Positions 14,864 to 22,176 of a DNA stretch of 64,000 nucleotides are shown here, piece by piece. The DNA comes from Acidimicrobiaceae bacterium. GTDB taxonomy: Bacteria; Actinomycetota; Acidimicrobiia; Acidimicrobiales; Poriferisodalaceae. How positions within the stretch are numbered: position 1 is the first letter of the stretch; each line of letters begins with the position of its first letter. Made by a program: the position numbers and the translations under genes. The notes beneath the pieces were generated by a model, which searched no databases, was not told the DNA's origin, and was given only the letters and a program-made list of their open reading frames with translations. The DNA lies in the NCBI GenBank assembly GCA_905182565.1, contig CAJJCB010000024.1, positions 62,001-126,000 of the forward strand, in the 5' to 3' direction.

Positions 14864-16225
14864 ATGTTCGGGAACGTGCGAATCGTTGTAGCGGGTGCGG
14901 GTGAAGTGGGTTCTTACGTCGCCGAGCGTTTAAGTCGAGAAGGTAATGAGGTCGTTGTTATCGATCTAAGTCGAGAACAGCTAGAACCCTTAGAGAAGCT
15001 CGACATAATGACGGTGACTGGAAATGCAACCAATCCAACGACGTTGAAGGAAGCCGGTGTCGATAAGGCCGAAGTTATGGTGGCTGTGACTGATAGCGAC
15101 CAGGCTAATTTGCTCGTGTGTCTTCAGGCTCGTCAAGCGCGAGACGATCAGTCGTTGTCGACTATCGCTCGGATTGCAGACAGAGAGCTTAGGGGCCCTG
15201 ATGGTCGACAGTTACGAGAGACCATGGGCGTTGACTTGGTCCTCGACCCTGATGAACAAACAGCTGGAGCCATTCATGAGTTGCTTGTTTATCAAGGAGC
15301 TTCTGATATTTATGAGATGGCTGGCGGTGAAATACTTTTAGTTGGCGCCCGGTTGGGAGACGATGCTCCGGTAGTCGGTAGGTCTATGCAAGAAATAGGC
15401 GCGGATTATGAGCCTGAATGGGACTTCATATTTGGAGAGATTATTCGTAACGGTGTAAGCGAGGTGGTTCGAGATGATACTCGGCTTCTGGCTCATGATC
15501 TGTTACGTGTTGTTTGTCGTCGAAAAGGTCGCAGAGAACTGATGGAGATACTCGGTCTACACCGAGCGGAACTCCGAAGAGTGATGTTGCTCGGGGGTGG
15601 TCGCACAGCTGAACTTCTTGCCATTCGCCTGGTCGATCGAGGCGTAGAAGTAGTGATAGTCGAGAGAGACCCGAACCGTACAAAGGTGCTTTCCGAAAAA
15701 CTTTTTGGAGCATTGGTTTTGCAAGGAGACATCACTGATACTGATTTCTTGCAGAGCGAAGATGTAGGAAATTTTGATGCCGTAGTTGCAGCAACGGGCG
15801 AAGATGATGCAAACGTTCTTGCATGTCTATATGCCAAATCTCAAGGCGCTGCGGAGACAATCGCCGTTGTGCACCGTTTGAGTCTTTTAAGCCTGCTCGA
15901 AGAAGTTGGAATTGATGCAGCGTTATCACCTCGTACAGCAAGCGCTAATAGTGTTTTGCGATATGTGCGCGGAGACGTGACAGCCGTTGCAACTTTCCTT
16001 GAAGGCGATGTAGAGGTCGTTGAGTTCGAAGTTGCCCCAGGAGCCCCGGCAGACGGGACCGCTGTTCGGGATCTTGGATTGCCGACTCAAGCCCTTCTAG
16101 CTGCGATAGTTCGCGATGGTAACGCCCATATAGCTCGTGGGCGTAGTGTGCTGAGAACGCGCGATCATGTCATCGTGTTCGCAAAACCAAATATGGTGGA
16201 TGAGGTCAAGCGGGCTTTCGGGTGA
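14864..16225 (+). CDS. trkA: Trk potassium uptake regulatory subunit TrkA
   Basis: TrkA is the cytoplasmic gating ring of Trk channels. The 453 residues contain two RCK_N-RCK_C modules. The first nucleotide-binding motif is GAGEVGSYVAERL (residues 10-22) ending in Asp (VVVID). The second is LLGGGRTAELLAIRL near residue 245 with Glu (VVIVE). C-terminal RCK_C domains follow each. It overlaps the first trkH gene by 4 nt (GTGA), and trkH overlaps a second trkH, so all three are probably made from one message. Confidence 0.93.
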   Translation: MFGNVRIVVAGAGEVGSYVAERLSREGNEVVVIDLSREQLEPLEKLDIMTVTGNATNPTTLKEAGVDKAEVMVAVTDSDQANLLVCLQARQARDDQSLSTIARIADRELRGPDGRQLRETMGVDLVLDPDEQTAGAIHELLVYQGASDIYEMAGGEILLVGARLGDDAPVVGRSMQEIGADYEPEWDFIFGEIIRNGVSEVVRDDTRLLAHDLLRVVCRRKGRRELMEILGLHRAELRRVMLLGGGRTAELLAIRLVDRGVEVVIVERDPNRTKVLSEKLFGALVLQGDITDTDFLQSEDVGNFDAVVAATGEDDANVLACLYAKSQGAAETIAVVHRLSLLSLLEEVGIDAALSPRTASANSVLRYVRGDVTAVATFLEGDVEVVEFEVAPGAPADGTAVRDLGLPTQALLAAIVRDGNAHIARGRSVLRTRDHVIVFAKPNMVDEVKRAFG

Positions 16226-17811
16226 CGCCAAGGCCGTCTAGAGGTGGACCGAGCCTCGGACGATTGAAGATCCGAATAACTAAGAGTCTGCATGTTGTCA
16301 AGTTGGCAGTGAGAGGTTACTCAAACGGCCGGGTTGAATCGGTTGGGGCGGTAACGGTTGGGACAGTGGCGTTGTGTGTTTGGCCTATGTTCATGGTGTG
16401 TGCTCTGTTCGATAGCGCCCGTGGAGGAAGCGTTTGGCTAGAGCTTTCAGTCGTTGGCACTACCTCAGCAGTTATCGGCTTGTTTATTTTAAGATATGCG
16501 CGCGTTCCTAAATATCTAAGCACAGCGCGACTGTTTCGAGCATTAGCATCGGGAACTTTAGCTTCGCTAGGAATCGTAATGGTTGGCCTATTGGCGACTG
16601 GAGCTACTGGAAGCATCACTCTGGCCCTTGTTGAGGCTGCGTCGACGATTACAGGTACTAACGCGAGCACGATTGATATTTCTAAGATTGAGCCGGGAGT
16701 CATGCTTCTACGCGCCCTTGGGCAGTGGATCGCCGGTGCTGCTCTCATCGTTATCTTAGTACGCGTTTTGCCGCATCTAGGAGTTGGTGGGCTCGATGCA
16801 GATGGCGGAGTGGCGACTCGTTCTGCCCGACGTTTGTCACCTAAAAGCAGTGGCACTGTTTTCAGGCTATTGCTCCTATATGTCATGTTGACAGCGTTAA
16901 TAGGAGTGGGCTACGCAGCAGCCGGCATGCCGTTAGTTGATAGTGCGATGCACGCGTTAACGACTATCTCTACTGGCGGTTTTTCGACTCAGCTCGGTTC
17001 GATTGGCGCCTATCAATCAGGACCAATCGAATGGGTGGCTGTCGGTGGAATGTTTATTGCTGGGATCAGTCTGCCGCTTATTTTCTTAGCTATACGGCGT
17101 AAAGACCCAAAGCGATTTTGGAGAAGCTATGAATTTCGTTTTTATTCATTAGTTGTACTTGCTGCCGCCTCGTTCGTCGCTATTTTTGCTAGGCAACCAT
17201 TGACGCTAGACATTGTTAGATCCTCGTTGTTTAAAGTCACTTCTGCCGCTTCGACGACAGGCTATATCGATAGTGCGAGCGATCTGACATCTGCCGGCGG
17301 ACAGTCGCTGGTCATCATTGTGATGTTGATCGGTGGCATGTCAGCGTCAATGACTGGGGGCTTCAAGGTGATGCGTCTTTTGGCCATTAGCTCTTATATC
17401 GGTCGTGAGCTGAAGCGTGTGATTCACCCGACTGCAGTTCTACCTATTCGTGTTGGTCATTCGTCGATTGGGCAAACGGCGTTTTCTAGAATAGTAGGCG
17501 AAATTTTTTTGTCGCTCTTGGTTCTGATTCCAGGAGCGTTGATACTGACTAACGGTGGTCTAGATTTGGAGGGCGCTTTTTCTTTTGCACTTTCATGTCT
17601 TTCTAATTTTGGCCCGGCTTTTGGCGGTGCAGCCCAGATCAACCATTTAAGTGAATTGTCGGGTATTGGGCAGATTTTTTCAGCGGGCCTAATGGTTGTT
17701 GGCCGAATATCCATAACACCGGTATTAGTGGTTTTGGCATTCATTACCGAGCCACTGGCCAGAACATTAAGGCGTAAATCATTTGGCCGTAGAAAAATGG
17801 CAGTCCGATGA
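16222..17811 (+). CDS. TrkH-family transporter, divergent paralogue
   Basis: This 529-residue protein has the TrkH/KtrB plan of four M1-P-M2 repeats. The second, third and fourth pore loops are recognisable (TISTGGFST, SAASTTGYID, LSNFGPAFGG) and keep the selectivity glycine. The first loop (residues 141-150) reads STITGTNAST where the partner gene has GFTCTGST. Aligned from the conserved QW downstream, the filter glycine is replaced by Asn147. A basic N-terminal tail of about 35 residues is also unusual. It could be a subunit or paralogue with changed ion selectivity. Its place between trkA and a normal trkH argues for joint function. Confidence 0.85.
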   Translation: MTPRPSRGGPSLGRLKIRITKSLHVVKLAVRGYSNGRVESVGAVTVGTVALCVWPMFMVCALFDSARGGSVWLELSVVGTTSAVIGLFILRYARVPKYLSTARLFRALASGTLASLGIVMVGLLATGATGSITLALVEAASTITGTNASTIDISKIEPGVMLLRALGQWIAGAALIVILVRVLPHLGVGGLDADGGVATRSARRLSPKSSGTVFRLLLLYVMLTALIGVGYAAAGMPLVDSAMHALTTISTGGFSTQLGSIGAYQSGPIEWVAVGGMFIAGISLPLIFLAIRRKDPKRFWRSYEFRFYSLVVLAAASFVAIFARQPLTLDIVRSSLFKVTSAASTTGYIDSASDLTSAGGQSLVIIVMLIGGMSASMTGGFKVMRLLAISSYIGRELKRVIHPTAVLPIRVGHSSIGQTAFSRIVGEIFLSLLVLIPGALILTNGGLDLEGAFSFALSCLSNFGPAFGGAAQINHLSELSGIGQIFSAGLMVVGRISITPVLVVLAFITEPLARTLRRKSFGRRKMAVR

Positions 17812-19283
17812 AAAAAATTAAAGGGACCCCCTTGAGAGTCTCTGGCTCTGCGTTGGTCGCCATCTCATTAGGAATGTTTGCCTCTTCGGGAGTTGCTTTA
17901 GCAGATGGGGGCGGTGGGGCTTCAGGTCTATTGGTCTCGGCCCTTTTAACTTTATCGATAGGTACCATCATGTTTGGTGCTTCTTCGGTATCTGATCGAG
18001 CTGATACCCCGGTTGCTCTTGCCTCTGTTGCGTGGAGCTGGCTTGCTGTTTCGATAGCTGGTGCTTTGCCTTTCTTGATGACCGGGTCAATCCCATGGGC
18101 TCATTTTGATGATGCTCTATTCGAGTCAATATCGGGATTTACGTGCACCGGCTCAACGATTTTTTCCGATATTGAGGCTGTGCCTCGAGGAGTCCTGTTC
18201 TTTCGAAGCATGATTCAGTGGTTTGGTGGGATGGGTTTAATTGTCCTAGCGGTAGCTGTATTACCAGCCTTAAAAATTGGAGGTCTGGAGCTAATAGCCA
18301 ACGAAGCCCCTGGGCCAACGGCTGACCGGTTAACACCGAAAGTTACTGACACTGCGCGCCGTCTATGGTTACTATATGGCGGAATAACGCTAGCTATGAT
18401 TGCTGCCCTTATGGTCGTAGGTTTATCGCCCTACGATGCTGCTACTCATGCATTCACGACTGTTGCGACTGGGGGCTTTTCTCCCTATAACGCGTCGATC
18501 GCTCATTTCGATTCCTTGCTAGTCGAATTCATTATCATCGCAGGCATGATTTTCTGCGGCGCTAACTTTTCGCTGCATTGGTATGCCTTCAAAAACGGCC
18601 CAAAAGCGTACCATCGGGTGAGTGAGCTGCGTTGGTACTTGGGGTTGATTGTTGGGTCAACATTTATTTTAATATGGTTAAATTTTGGGAATCTCTCATT
18701 AGGTAGAAATATTCGAGAGTCATTTTTTTATACTGTTTCATTAGGAACCAGCACTGGCTTTGGGACTAGTGATTTTACTATTTGGGCGCCTGCCGCTCAG
18801 GTAGTCCTCCTGACATTAATGATCGTTGGCGGTATGACCGGGTCGACTGCCGGGGGCATGAAAATATTGCGTCTCCAAATTTTGGTGCGCTATTCTTTTC
18901 GCGAAATCGTTAGAGCGCGCCACCCCAAGGCCGTAGTTCCTATTCGTATGGGAGCGGTATCAATAGATGAGCAAATTGCTGCGAAAGCGGTCGGTTTCAT
19001 ATTGTTGTATATGGGGTTAATCGTGCTTGGAGGGTTAACGCTGGCAGGTTTGGGTGTTGAACCTGTTACTGCATTCTCGGGAGCGGTTTCAGCGATCGGA
19101 AATGCCGGCCCGGGGTTGGGAGAGGCAGGACCGGTAAGTGACTTTTTGGTATTTCCTCGGCTCGGACGCGTAATCATAATGTTTTTAATGATGTTTGGCC
19201 GTCTTGAGGTTTTCCCAATGATGCTTATGTTTGTGGCATTCGCCCGAGCAGTATCGAGATCTCGCCATACGATTCGGCAATAA
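17808..19283 (+). CDS. trkH: Potassium uptake channel TrkH
   Basis: This is the canonical membrane subunit of the Trk system (491 residues). Its pore loops are GFTCTGSTIF (residues 110-119), VATGGFSPY, GTSTGFGTSDF and IGNAGPGLGE, each with the selectivity glycine, and M1-P-M2 helices surround each loop. The positively charged residue typical of the intramembrane gate is found in RMGAVSIDEQ or nearby. The ATG overlaps the stop of the divergent paralogue by 4 nt. After its stop there are 26 nt to the convergent lpqB-like gene, without a clear terminator. Confidence 0.93.
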   Translation: MKKIKGTPLRVSGSALVAISLGMFASSGVALADGGGGASGLLVSALLTLSIGTIMFGASSVSDRADTPVALASVAWSWLAVSIAGALPFLMTGSIPWAHFDDALFESISGFTCTGSTIFSDIEAVPRGVLFFRSMIQWFGGMGLIVLAVAVLPALKIGGLELIANEAPGPTADRLTPKVTDTARRLWLLYGGITLAMIAALMVVGLSPYDAATHAFTTVATGGFSPYNASIAHFDSLLVEFIIIAGMIFCGANFSLHWYAFKNGPKAYHRVSELRWYLGLIVGSTFILIWLNFGNLSLGRNIRESFFYTVSLGTSTGFGTSDFTIWAPAAQVVLLTLMIVGGMTGSTAGGMKILRLQILVRYSFREIVRARHPKAVVPIRMGAVSIDEQIAAKAVGFILLYMGLIVLGGLTLAGLGVEPVTAFSGAVSAIGNAGPGLGEAGPVSDFLVFPRLGRVIIMFLMMFGRLEVFPMMLMFVAFARAVSRSRHTIRQ

Positions 19284-19309: not shown

Positions 19310-19945
19310 TTATAAATTTTTATTCTGGGCGCGCAATGGGGCGAAATCATCTGCTGTTAGCGGCTGAACGAAGCCGTCAGAAGCTTTTTCGGCGATAATG
19401 CCTCGACTATCCGGGAGCTGCTGAGCGACACCATCTAAAAGGAAGAGGATGCCTTGAGCATCGGTTACTAACCCGAGGCCAGTGAAAACTAGTTGAGCTG
19501 TGGCTCTAATTCGTTGAGCACCCTGAAGAGCAAAAAAATTGGCATTTAGATGAATGGCAACGATGTTGTTTCGTGAGACTTGAACATTGACTATCTCGGT
19601 GCCTTCAGGTATCGCTGACTCTAGTCCAGTTGCCGCTTCTGAAGAGGAGGGGCCAATTAGCAGATTGTTAAGTGGGGCTTCTAAAAATACTGGAGAAAGT
19701 AGACGCCGTTTTACCTCAACTATCTGACTATCCAATAGGAAATAAACCGGATGAATAGTCGTGCCGACGTCTAACTCAAGTGAATCATCAGGGTTAAGGT
19801 CTGCTGGGAGTCGCCCTCCGTCAGGGAAAACATCCTCAGGAACTTCTAAAACGTTTGGGGTTTCATTTGAAGAGAGGCCACAGGCTGGGAGGGCGAAAAG
19901 AATAAAGACAACCGCGTTCAGTATTAGAAGCTTAGATTTACTCAT
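19310..19945 (-). CDS. LpqB-like lipoprotein with GerMN domain (short form)
   Basis: The protein begins with a lipoprotein signal: Lys-rich start, hydrophobic run and lipobox LPAC (Cys22). The rest is a GerMN domain: VYFLLDSQIVEVKR, LLIGPSSSEAATGLES, IPEGTEIVNVQV, VAIHLNANF. The cassette order RR-kinase-GerMN lipoprotein is that of mtrA-mtrB-lpqB, in which LpqB is thought to modulate MtrB outside the membrane. Mycobacterial LpqB is more than twice as long because of a C-terminal propeller; this 211-residue version ends after GerMN. Its ATG overlaps the kinase stop by 4 nt. Confidence 0.85.
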   Translation of the reverse strand: MSKSKLLILNAVVFILFALPACGLSSNETPNVLEVPEDVFPDGGRLPADLNPDDSLELDVGTTIHPVYFLLDSQIVEVKRRLLSPVFLEAPLNNLLIGPSSSEAATGLESAIPEGTEIVNVQVSRNNIVAIHLNANFFALQGAQRIRATAQLVFTGLGLVTDAQGILFLLDGVAQQLPDSRGIIAEKASDGFVQPLTADDFAPLRAQNKNL

Positions 19946-21351
19946 TTTCTTCCAACCATCGGCAGGTCAATTGTGAAGCGAGCTCCGCGGTGTCCGTCCT
20001 TACGATTTCCTGCTTTCGCTGAGCCTCCGTGCCGTCGTGTGTGCTCATCGACTAGAGCAAGCCCCAGGCCTGCGCCCCCGCCTGTACCTCGGTTTTTTGC
20101 TGCGTTTCCGCGAGTGAAGGCTTGAAAGATGAGTTCTCGCTCGGAAGGAGATACCCCGGGTCCCGCATCCTCGACGGATACGTACACCCTGCCTTCTGAC
20201 TGAGTTATCTCTATCAAGGTGGCTCCGTTCGCATATTTTTCTGCGTTGCGGAGCAGATTATCGAACACTTGAGCTAGCCGGCGTTTATCTCCGATCACTA
20301 GAGCGTTGTTCGCTCCATCGAGAATACTTATAGGTGGCTGTTTTTCGAACATTGCTACGGTGGCTTCAACCAGTTCCGTCATGTTGACTAGGTCAGATGG
20401 GATAGACCCTGAATTGGATCTTGCTAAGTCAAGGAGGTCTTGGACTAGTTTTTCAAACCTATCTACATCACCAGCGAGGAGGTCAAGGGCTTGTGAGGCA
20501 CGCTCGGGGAGTTCGATGCGTCGACTTTGCATCACTTCGATAGACGCTCTGAGAGTCATGAGTGGTGAACGAAGCTCATGGCTAACGTCGGACGCAAATC
20601 GAGCATCTTTCGCTATGCGTTGTTCCATAGTCGCAGCCATGTCGTTGAATGACCTGATAATTGGCATAAGGTCTGGGTCGTCAGTTGTCTCAACTCTGGC
20701 CGCGAATTGTCCGTTCGCAAGGGCTTGCGCCACAGCGGATATATCGGTTAATGGGCTTAGAACTCTGCCGCTAGCCCACAAGCCGGCTGAAGCACCGATT
20801 AAGACGGTTGCTATGGCACCTAAAATAAGTATTAAGCCGAGACTTTCCAGAGTATTTTCGATCTCTGAAAGTGGCGTAATCTCGAAATAAGCAACATCAG
20901 TTAAGGTCGAAATTTGGCTTGGGCGCAGCCTGAGACCAACGGCTAGCTGTGATTCTCCTTCTAGGCGATAGCGCATTTGTCTTGCTGTCGAAGCATTTTT
21001 TACTTCATCGATTAAGAGAGTCGGAAGGTCGCTTGGAGCTAAAGAAAGAGAAACCCACGTGTTTTCACTGGTTCTAAGGATTGACCTACTGCCGCTTAAG
21101 CTTGGTAACGATTCAAGGAGTAGAGCGAAGTCGGGATCCTCTGCTCTGAGAGCCCCTTGGACTTGTCTTGCATTAGCAAAAAATTGTTCCTGTGAGGAGG
21201 TTTCTCGTTGCCGCAGCATTGACTCTCGAGATAAGCCGTAGGTGATTATCACTAGGAAAAGAGCTGCAATGATTGCGCCTAGAGTAAAGGCTCCAATGAT
21301 GCGCGCTCGAAGAGGTAATCTCCTATGCCAAAGTCTTGATCTGTTTTTCAT
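19942..21351 (-). CDS. mtrB: Sensor histidine kinase, MtrB-like
   Basis: This is a membrane sensor kinase of 469 residues. It has a TM helix at about residues 16-38, an extracytoplasmic region of about 140 residues, a second TM near 175-198 and then HAMP. The dimerisation box FASDVSHELRSPLMTLRASI contains the phosphorylated His. The ATPase domain has DNLLRNAEKYA (N box), VEDAGPGVS (G1) and GGAGLGLALVDEH (G2). It works with the response regulator encoded upstream. In mycobacteria MtrAB couples envelope growth, division and osmotic response; that role is inferred here from the shared gene order with lpqB. Confidence 0.88.
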   Translation of the reverse strand: MKNRSRLWHRRLPLRARIIGAFTLGAIIAALFLVIITYGLSRESMLRQRETSSQEQFFANARQVQGALRAEDPDFALLLESLPSLSGSRSILRTSENTWVSLSLAPSDLPTLLIDEVKNASTARQMRYRLEGESQLAVGLRLRPSQISTLTDVAYFEITPLSEIENTLESLGLILILGAIATVLIGASAGLWASGRVLSPLTDISAVAQALANGQFAARVETTDDPDLMPIIRSFNDMAATMEQRIAKDARFASDVSHELRSPLMTLRASIEVMQSRRIELPERASQALDLLAGDVDRFEKLVQDLLDLARSNSGSIPSDLVNMTELVEATVAMFEKQPPISILDGANNALVIGDKRRLAQVFDNLLRNAEKYANGATLIEITQSEGRVYVSVEDAGPGVSPSERELIFQAFTRGNAAKNRGTGGGAGLGLALVDEHTRRHGGSAKAGNRKDGHRGARFTIDLPMVGRK

Positions 21352-21495
21352 TCAGGCGAGTTATTCTTCAAATGGTGTCCTCGCTTATGAGACGCTAACG
21401 GGGTCTTCGGTTTAGCTACATGATCTTTTGGTAACTGATCAATAAAAGTAGTTCACGATAGTACACGAGAACTAACTGAGAGCGGATTGGTCTAC

Positions 21496-22176
21496 TTAGT
21501 GTTGAAGCTTGTAGCCCATCCCTCTGACTGTCACTACGTACTGTGGGCTAGCTGCATCTACTTCTATTTTTGTCCGCAGGCGGCGTACATGAACGTCAAC
21601 TAGTCTCCCATCGCCGAAGTAGCCATAGCCCCAAACTTTTTCCAGAAGATATTCTCTGCTGCGAACTTTATTGGGGTTTTCGGCGAGCTCGTAAAGAAGG
21701 TGAAACTCAGTCCGTGTTAGGTGAATTTTTTTGTCTCCTAAAGAAACCACTCCTTCGTCACGATTAAGTTCAAGGTCTCCAACTCTTAGCAGCGGTTCGT
21801 TCGTGGAGTCTGATCTCGAGCGCCTCAATAAAGCTCTAATTCGCGCAGATAGTTCTTTAGGAGCGAATGGTTTAGTTAAGTAATCGTCAGCACCTGCTTC
21901 GAGCCCGGCAACTATGTCGTGAGTATCGTCACGTGCTGTGACCATGATAATCGGAACGTCGCTTATGCTTCGAATTTCTCTGCAAAGTTCGAAGCCATCA
22001 ATTCCCGGCAACATGATGTCTATGAGAACTAAATCAATTGTTTCTTTATGGAATTCTGCTAGAGCGACTTCGCCGGAGTCTGCTTTAACAACCTGCCAGC
22101 CTTCGTCTTCAAGAGCGAAGGTAAGGGCTGTAAGGATTCGTTCGTCGTCTTCAACCGCCAGGATTCTGATATTCAC
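21496..22176 (-). CDS. mtrA: OmpR-family response regulator, MtrA-like
   Basis: The receiver domain (residues 1-120) has the acidic pair in AVEDDERI, the phosphorylated Asp in LVLIDIMLPGIDG and the Lys in YLTKPFAPKEL. The OmpR winged helix (about 130-225) ends TVRGMGYKL. At 226 residues it is complete. A 144-bp gap separates it from the mtrB-like gene, longer than usual in this window, so a second promoter or 5' control there is possible. MtrA identity rests on context with the kinase and GerMN lipoprotein. Confidence 0.88.
   Translation of the reverse strand: MNIRILAVEDDERILTALTFALEDEGWQVVKADSGEVALAEFHKETIDLVLIDIMLPGIDGFELCREIRSISDVPIIMVTARDDTHDIVAGLEAGADDYLTKPFAPKELSARIRALLRRSRSDSTNEPLLRVGDLELNRDEGVVSLGDKKIHLTRTEFHLLYELAENPNKVRSREYLLEKVWGYGYFGDGRLVDVHVRRLRTKIEVDAASPQYVVTVRGMGYKLQH

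Follow-up and report, generated by a model that had tools for sequence, protein, structure and literature searches.

A TrkH paralogue with a changed first filter loop, encoded between trkA and a canonical TrkH in 16 families of Acidimicrobiales

In a 64,000-nucleotide stretch of DNA from an Acidimicrobiaceae bacterium (contig CAJJCB010000024.1, positions 62,001 to 126,000; hereafter the window), the gene for the regulatory subunit TrkA is followed by two trkH genes, whose products are called TrkH1 and TrkH2, labels of this analysis for the first and the second TrkH. TrkH1 is a TrkH paralogue of ancient origin, passed on vertically, in which the glycine of the first filter loop has been replaced, by Asn147 in the window. 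A paired, loop-1-altered TrkH was not found reported in the open-access literature, subscription papers being outside the search. Our leading interpretation, to which we give a probability of roughly 0.4, is that TrkH1 forms a gated cation pore that is less K+-selective, is controlled by TrkA and most likely sits in a heterodimer with TrkH2; conduction, the conducted ion and the heterodimer are what we infer here. The features are listed in Table 1.

Each of the four pore loops of a TrkH channel contributes one glycine to the filter. TrkH1 has three of the four, with Asn147 in loop 1, while TrkH2 has Gly115, Gly222, Gly317 and Gly434. The letters of loop 1 are EAASTITGTNASTI in TrkH1 versus ESISGFTCTGSTIF in TrkH2. 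The initial annotation of this DNA had proposed that the first TrkH of the trkA-trkH-trkH set has a changed first loop, with Asn147 at the filter position and the glycines of loops 2-4 kept, and the alignments bear this out, the kept glycines being Gly252, Gly347 and Gly464. In phmmer, Asn147 pairs with the filter Gly113 of Vibrio parahaemolyticus TrkH (3pjz), and in a profile of 29 TrkH1-type proteins T-T-T-[A/S/N] matches T-T-T-G113 of the Vibrio protein gap-free. Close relatives in family f57 show CTT[N]LSVL versus CTT[G]ISVL, and therefore the register of the position-1 column is settled. The residue had originally been reached by counting from the conserved QW; that conclusion stands, but an ungapped count puts Thr146 opposite the glycine. 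The stretch to QW is one residue shorter in TrkH1, and Asn147 is reached from the upstream side or via one downstream gap.

Gly145, two residues ahead of the filter position, was considered as the filter residue (TITG equated with TCTG) and was rejected, because the pore helix would have to slide by two residues, because V-S-T-T-A and F-C-T-T-N of the relatives are in register with V-T-G-T-N, and because both structure-anchored alignments lead to Asn147 or its equivalent; no alignment put Gly145 in the filter. The N-glycosylation sequon N-x-S/T at residues 147-149 was regarded as a by-product, since canonical copies, too, conserve a Ser/Thr two positions further along.

The family of the window (f1) was represented by 39 genomes, 38 of them with TrkH matches; the one without is 65% complete. 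Whether Asn147 is conserved had been left to a family alignment by the initial annotation. Loop 1 is covered by 37 of the 38 first-position copies, and position 1 is Asn in 31, Ala in 3, Ser in 2 and unread in 1. By genus, Asn was found in 6 of 10 and Ala or Ser in the other 4, and Gly never. The last-position copies are GGGG in 37 of 38, the remaining one being a fragment. The substitution is also kept in the nearest relatives, being present in the same genus (L003/L032). A contig scan with the TrkH1 protein alone returned a single relative, from an uncultured Acidimicrobiales bacterium (CAJQGN010000090.1, 87% identity). An assembly or sequencing error was rejected, since the substitution is common to independently assembled genomes (31 of the 37 copies). 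Lineage-specific decay was rejected on the same conservation together with the ratio of nonsynonymous to synonymous substitution rates (dN/dS) given below.

For the order, 298 genomes were drawn, of which 111 had a match, and a chosen part of these was read (56 loci, not counting the window itself and a ten-base slip, plus 20 more). TrkH pieces with fewer than 380 aligned residues were excluded from the counts; these are the TrkH1 fragment of G002, the TrkH2 pieces of G027 and a short extra piece at L065. The trkA-TrkH1-TrkH2 arrangement was found in 16 families (f1, f12, f14, f17, f20, f25, f27, f28, f35, f36, f52, f53, f55, f57, f58 and f59), with trkA, the divergent TrkH and the canonical TrkH in that order in nearly all; in G096 TrkH2 lies on another contig. 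Among 93 TrkH1 proteins, one per genome, the filter reads NGGG in 36, AGGG in 31, SGGG in 15 and GGGG in 10, with 1 unread, and the second, third and fourth glycines (Gly2, Gly3 and Gly4) are each present in 93/93. Of 97 TrkH2-type copies, 96 read GGGG and 1 reads GGAG. Asn at position 1 of TrkH1 occurs in f1, f57 and f52, and Gly in f28 (7/7), f57 (2/6) and f52 (1/3). At one f14 locus (L065, genome G051), three TrkH lie in a row with the filters AGGG, GGAG and GGGG, that is, two differently altered copies and one canonical.

The two proteins are strictly paired. A full TrkH2 accompanies TrkH1 in 92 of the 93 genomes, the exception (G027) having TrkH2 in pieces, and in the sole TrkH2 genome without a full TrkH1 (G002) the latter is cut by the contig end. 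TrkH1 without TrkH2 was never found among the 93 genomes where the data allow the check. Other genomes of the order have just one trkA-trkH, which is from a different lineage and GGGG in all 18 counted, and this single type was not found together with TrkH1 in any genome read.

In a tree of 147 rows, from which the loop-1 columns were excluded, TrkH1 forms one group (71/71; Shimodaira-Hasegawa-like approximate likelihood ratio test 99); this tree holds 71 of the 93 TrkH1, 22 near relatives in f1 being left out. A careful tree of 68 rows, with the two longest rows excluded, gave 100/100 for TrkH1 (31 rows) and 100/99 for TrkH2 (18 rows). Both trees hold bacterial genomes only, with no plant HKT sequence in them. 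On the 147-row tree at least 13 changes are needed at position 1 of TrkH1 (5 when scored as Gly/not-Gly, 4 as Asn/not-Asn), and positions 2-4 are invariant among the TrkH1 rows. The Gly-bearing rows nested inside the clade would be either reversions or a sign of several losses, two histories that the tree cannot separate. Between the window and the same-genus L032, dN/dS was 0.17 (NG86) and 0.23 (YN00) for TrkH1, and 0.07 and 0.12 for TrkH2. TrkH1 is under purifying selection.

Canonical copies conserve 62 columns at 95% or more, and TrkH1 conserves only 18 of these at 90% or more. These include Gly2 and its neighbour, Gly3, Gly4, Gly371, Ser376, Gly379, Gly380, Arg385, Gly494 and Arg495, among which Gly371, Ser376, Gly379 and Gly380 are positions of the intramembrane gating loop. 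Since pore columns are among the few retained, selection keeps the pore core of TrkH1, loop 1 excepted. The D4M2 arginine is kept in 89/93 TrkH1, and the gating-loop glycines are kept too. The gating-loop Thr is kept in 4/93, the loop Lys in 31/93 (Lys382 in the window) and the Glu of GRLE in 11/93, and the E-x-P-G of the D1-D2 loop is lost. In 4 of the 5 genomes of genus g9 (L015, L016, L017 and L018) the gating-loop Lys of TrkH1 is replaced by Thr (GGFTVMR), whereas Lys is retained in the family's remaining Asn-bearing copies.

The three genes run trkA, TrkH1, TrkH2 on the + strand, overlapping head to tail. Their 4-base overlaps, GTGA and ATGA, are a usual sign of translational coupling and suggest that the three products may be made together. 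TrkH1 scored 94.3 bits and TrkH2 204.3 bits against PF02386 (TrkH; cut-off 27), and TrkH1 scored 88.6 bits in the genome-wide search; against the NCBIfam subfamily TIGR00933 (cut-off 331) both fell below, at 152 and 270. The two proteins share 31% identity in alignment. The 2.65 Mb genome (95.6% complete) holds two TrkH and one TrkA, with no KdpA and no Kup found in it, so that no Trk, Kdp or Kup system besides trkA-trkH1-trkH2 is recognised in it. The trkA that overlaps TrkH1 is the sole TrkA in a profile search, and from this gene context TrkH1 is predicted to bind TrkA. Convergent to the operon, on the - strand at 19310-22176, lie genes for a Germane (GerMN) domain protein, a histidine kinase and a response regulator, a set that we take to resemble actinobacterial mtrAB-lpqB.

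Table 1. Positions of the operon genes and of the TrkH1 filter and gate features in the window.
Feature	Position	Strand	Basis or remark
trkA, two-RCK (regulator of K+ conductance) subunit, 453 aa	14864..16225	+	Open reading frame (ORF); TrkA_N/TrkA_C Pfam and NCBIfam TrkA over cut-off; single copy in genome
TrkH1, divergent TrkH paralogue, 529 aa, GTG start, filter N-G-G-G	16222..17811	+	ORF, Pfam, alignments
TrkH2, canonical TrkH, 491 aa, filter G-G-G-G	17808..19283	+	ORF, Pfam, alignments
GTGA overlap, trkA stop / TrkH1 start	16222..16225	+	Sequence
ATGA overlap, TrkH1 stop / TrkH2 start	17808..17811	+	Sequence
TrkH1 loop 1, residues 141-150, STITGTNAST	16642..16671	+	
Asn147 codon, filter position 1 (canonical TrkH: Gly)	16660..16662	+	phmmer, profile and relatives' alignments
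Gly252, filter-2 glycine of TrkH1	16975..16977	+	
Gly347, filter-3 glycine of TrkH1	17260..17262	+	
Gly464, filter-4 glycine of TrkH1	17611..17613	+	
Intramembrane gating loop, TrkH1 residues 369-386, LIGGMSASMTGGFKVMRL	17326..17379	+	Canonical GST-x-GG-x-K motif partly lost
Arg495, conserved D4M2 pore arginine	17704..17706	+	Kept in TrkH1

TrkH1 was compared with known systems. It belongs to the same family as V. parahaemolyticus TrkH (3pjz, 4j9u, 6v4j-6v4l), with E 2e-39 for the single sequence and 1.6e-92 for the clade profile. Features in common with Vibrio TrkAH are the trkA partner, the second to fourth filter glycines, the D4M2 arginine and, in part, the intramembrane loop, which keeps its glycines but has mostly lost the conserved Thr and Lys in the clade. 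Unlike the Vibrio protein, TrkH1 has the first filter glycine replaced (Asn in the window, mostly Ala/Ser/Asn in the clade), has altered GST-x-GG-x-K, GRLE and E-x-P-G motifs, and has a canonical TrkH beside it. In Vibrio TrkAH, ADP-bound TrkA is reported to shut TrkH via Thr175, Arg177, His377 and Arg379 of TrkH (PMC6987127), which correspond in the phmmer alignment to Ser206, Lys208, His402 and Thr404 of TrkH1. A loss of this closing contact (HN1), considered on account of the lost E-x-P-G, is not claimed, Ser206 and Lys208 being kept or conservative replacements.

KtrB of KtrAB also forms a double-pore dimer with one filter glycine per loop, and Gly to Ala mutants of it have been studied. 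A search of solved structures with the clade profile returned only bacterial TrkH and KtrB, KtrB being far more distant (E 1.9e-19 at best). TrkH1 is no KtrB by this measure, and its partner also differs, since TrkA has two TrkA_N stretches (Pfam) and is not a single-RCK KtrA. In KtrB, backbone carbonyls from the four filter loops line the S3 K+ site, a gate made up of the D4M2 arginine and the intramembrane loop has been proposed, and K325A in the loop lysine raises Vmax (PMC12059179).

The initial annotation had also drawn an analogy with plant HKT, and this is strengthened, as only loop 1 changes clade-wide and loops 2-4 keep Gly, the pattern described for class I. Most SGGG members are Na+ uniporters, those with GGGG also transport K+, and a residue other than Gly is very rare at P2-P4 (PMC7918770). 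The [N/A/S]GGG filter of TrkH1 may parallel the SGGG of the class I Na+ transporters (e.g. AtHKT1;1), both departing from Gly in loop 1 only. Unlike these, TrkH1 is bacterial, groups with bacterial TrkH, lies in an RCK-regulated operon and has Asn rather than Ser; the window's NGGG is not the class I pattern, which 15 of the 93 clade members carry. SGGG also occurs in a lone trkA-trkH of family f97 (L126, genome G546), its sibling L125 being GGGG.

Two TrkH-type pores in one cell are known from E. coli, where TrkG and TrkH work side by side as separate systems and Na+ uptake is reported for TrkG (PMC9898762). Unlike in TrkH1, every pore loop of both proteins is described as keeping its conserved glycine, and there is no clade-wide loop-1 change. 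A swap of four filter residues between them abolished K+ uptake (PMC9898762), which calls for caution against simple predictions. The clade of TrkH1 differs further in its operon; trkG and trkH of E. coli are not known to be arranged as trkA-trkH-trkH.

Tandem trkH pairs were also seen elsewhere. In family f102, of another class of the phylum, trkA-trkH-trkH has a first TrkH with GGAG, Ala being in loop 3, in 5/5 loci read (L120, L121, L122, L123 and L124); the second TrkH is canonical in 4 and cut in 1. These pairs form a separate lineage on the tree, and a single-copy TrkH of the same clade (L132) keeps Gly. In view of this parallel, filter changes in the trkA-proximal member of a pair seem to have arisen more than once. 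Pairs with two canonical filters exist as well (L118 and L119), and therefore pairing does not always accompany a changed filter.

In the mechanism that we consider most probable, TrkH1 would be made in step with trkA and TrkH2 through the 4-base overlaps on both its sides, and would share the cell's only TrkA. Most likely it would pair with TrkH2 in a heterodimer seated on a single TrkA ring. Since each protomer of a TrkH dimer has its own pore, such a heterodimer would hold two unlike pores. With the K+-type glycine of its first filter loop given up, TrkH1 might provide a less K+-selective, Na+-permeable barrel of lower K+ affinity, the TrkH2 barrel being K+-type, and ATP on TrkA would open both together. 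The strict TrkH1-TrkH2 pairing and the single TrkA fit a heteromer. Also in favour of this mechanism are the constraint on Gly2-4 and the gate, the purifying selection, the single TrkH1 clade, the lack of KdpA and Kup, the counterparts of the Vibrio TrkA-contact residues (Ser206, Lys208 and His402) and, as analogies, the class I HKT filters and the KtrB exchange cited below. Of the roles first offered for this protein (Na+-permeable subunit, heterodimer partner or regulatory paralogue), the first two gain partial support from the loop-1-only change and the strict pairing; the shift from K+ to Na+ stays a conjecture. A further step, in which a single TrkA ring would control both a K+ barrel and a Na+-permeable one and so couple Na+ and K+ entry (or membrane potential), appears quite unlikely.

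Several observations weigh against the TrkH1-TrkH2 pore. Asn tolerates the left-handed backbone adopted by a filter glycine, and the window filter might stay K+-like. Non-Gly is not obligatory at position 1, as 10/93 clade members have Gly there. TrkH1 evolves faster than TrkH2, with a mean identity of 34% against 48% over 88 loci; the identities of the two correlate at 0.95, which is no evidence of contact because shared descent explains it. An AlphaFold2 model of TrkH1 (four sequences) had a predicted local distance difference test score (pLDDT) of 37 and was not used as evidence; its poorly defined helix ends would place Asn147 three residues behind pore helix 1, as they do Gly464 behind pore helix 4, which carries little weight at this score. 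Wild-type Vibrio TrkH itself prefers K+ to Na+ only slightly (PMC6987127), and TrkH and KtrB are described as homodimers (PMC12059179).

In one alternative the substitution is functionally near-neutral, Asn, Ala or Ser standing in for Gly; TrkH1 would then be a lower-affinity K+ channel and the pair a high/low-affinity set. Position 1 of TrkH1 shows small residues only (N, A, S and G), Gly is found inside the clade in f28, f57 and f52, and Asn can take the Gly backbone shape. In KtrB, one filter Gly to Ala exchange is said to lower the affinity for K+ and Na+ about 100-fold (so the title of Tholema 1999), which is a channel of lower affinity and not a dead one. However, position 1 is Gly in all 97 TrkH2-type and all 18 single-copy TrkH of the order, where the site is not neutral, and we hold this alternative to be rather unlikely.

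An independent channel, in which TrkH1 homodimers with TrkA would be Na+-permeable or weakly selective, TrkH2 homodimers would take up K+ and the tandem would mean co-expression only, seems a little less probable still. It draws on the same filter conservation (Gly2-4 in 93/93), on the homodimeric state of known TrkH and KtrB and on the separate coexistence of the E. coli proteins cited above. For a free-standing channel, however, the constant company of TrkH2 is needless, and there is one TrkA only. That TrkH1 no longer conducts and has a regulatory or structural role beside TrkH2 on the TrkA ring is improbable, for although it evolves faster and has lost E-x-P-G, the loop Thr, the GRLE Glu and, in 62/93, the loop lysine, its Gly2-4, loop glycines and pore arginine are among the few columns to stay fixed, which a blocked pore does not need.

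The TrkH1 clade, in which loop 1 alone has changed repeatedly (Asn, Ala, Ser and in places Gly) with loops 2-4 untouched, amounts to a natural experiment on the filter, and close pairs that differ at position 1 are at hand, such as L140 (Asn) and L142 (Gly) in f57. If TrkH1 and TrkH2 co-assemble, the resulting Trk channel would have pores of two kinds. Such a hetero-double-barrelled Trk, if true, would be a counterpart to the class I plant HKT filters that arose independently in bacteria, and 16 families would share it.

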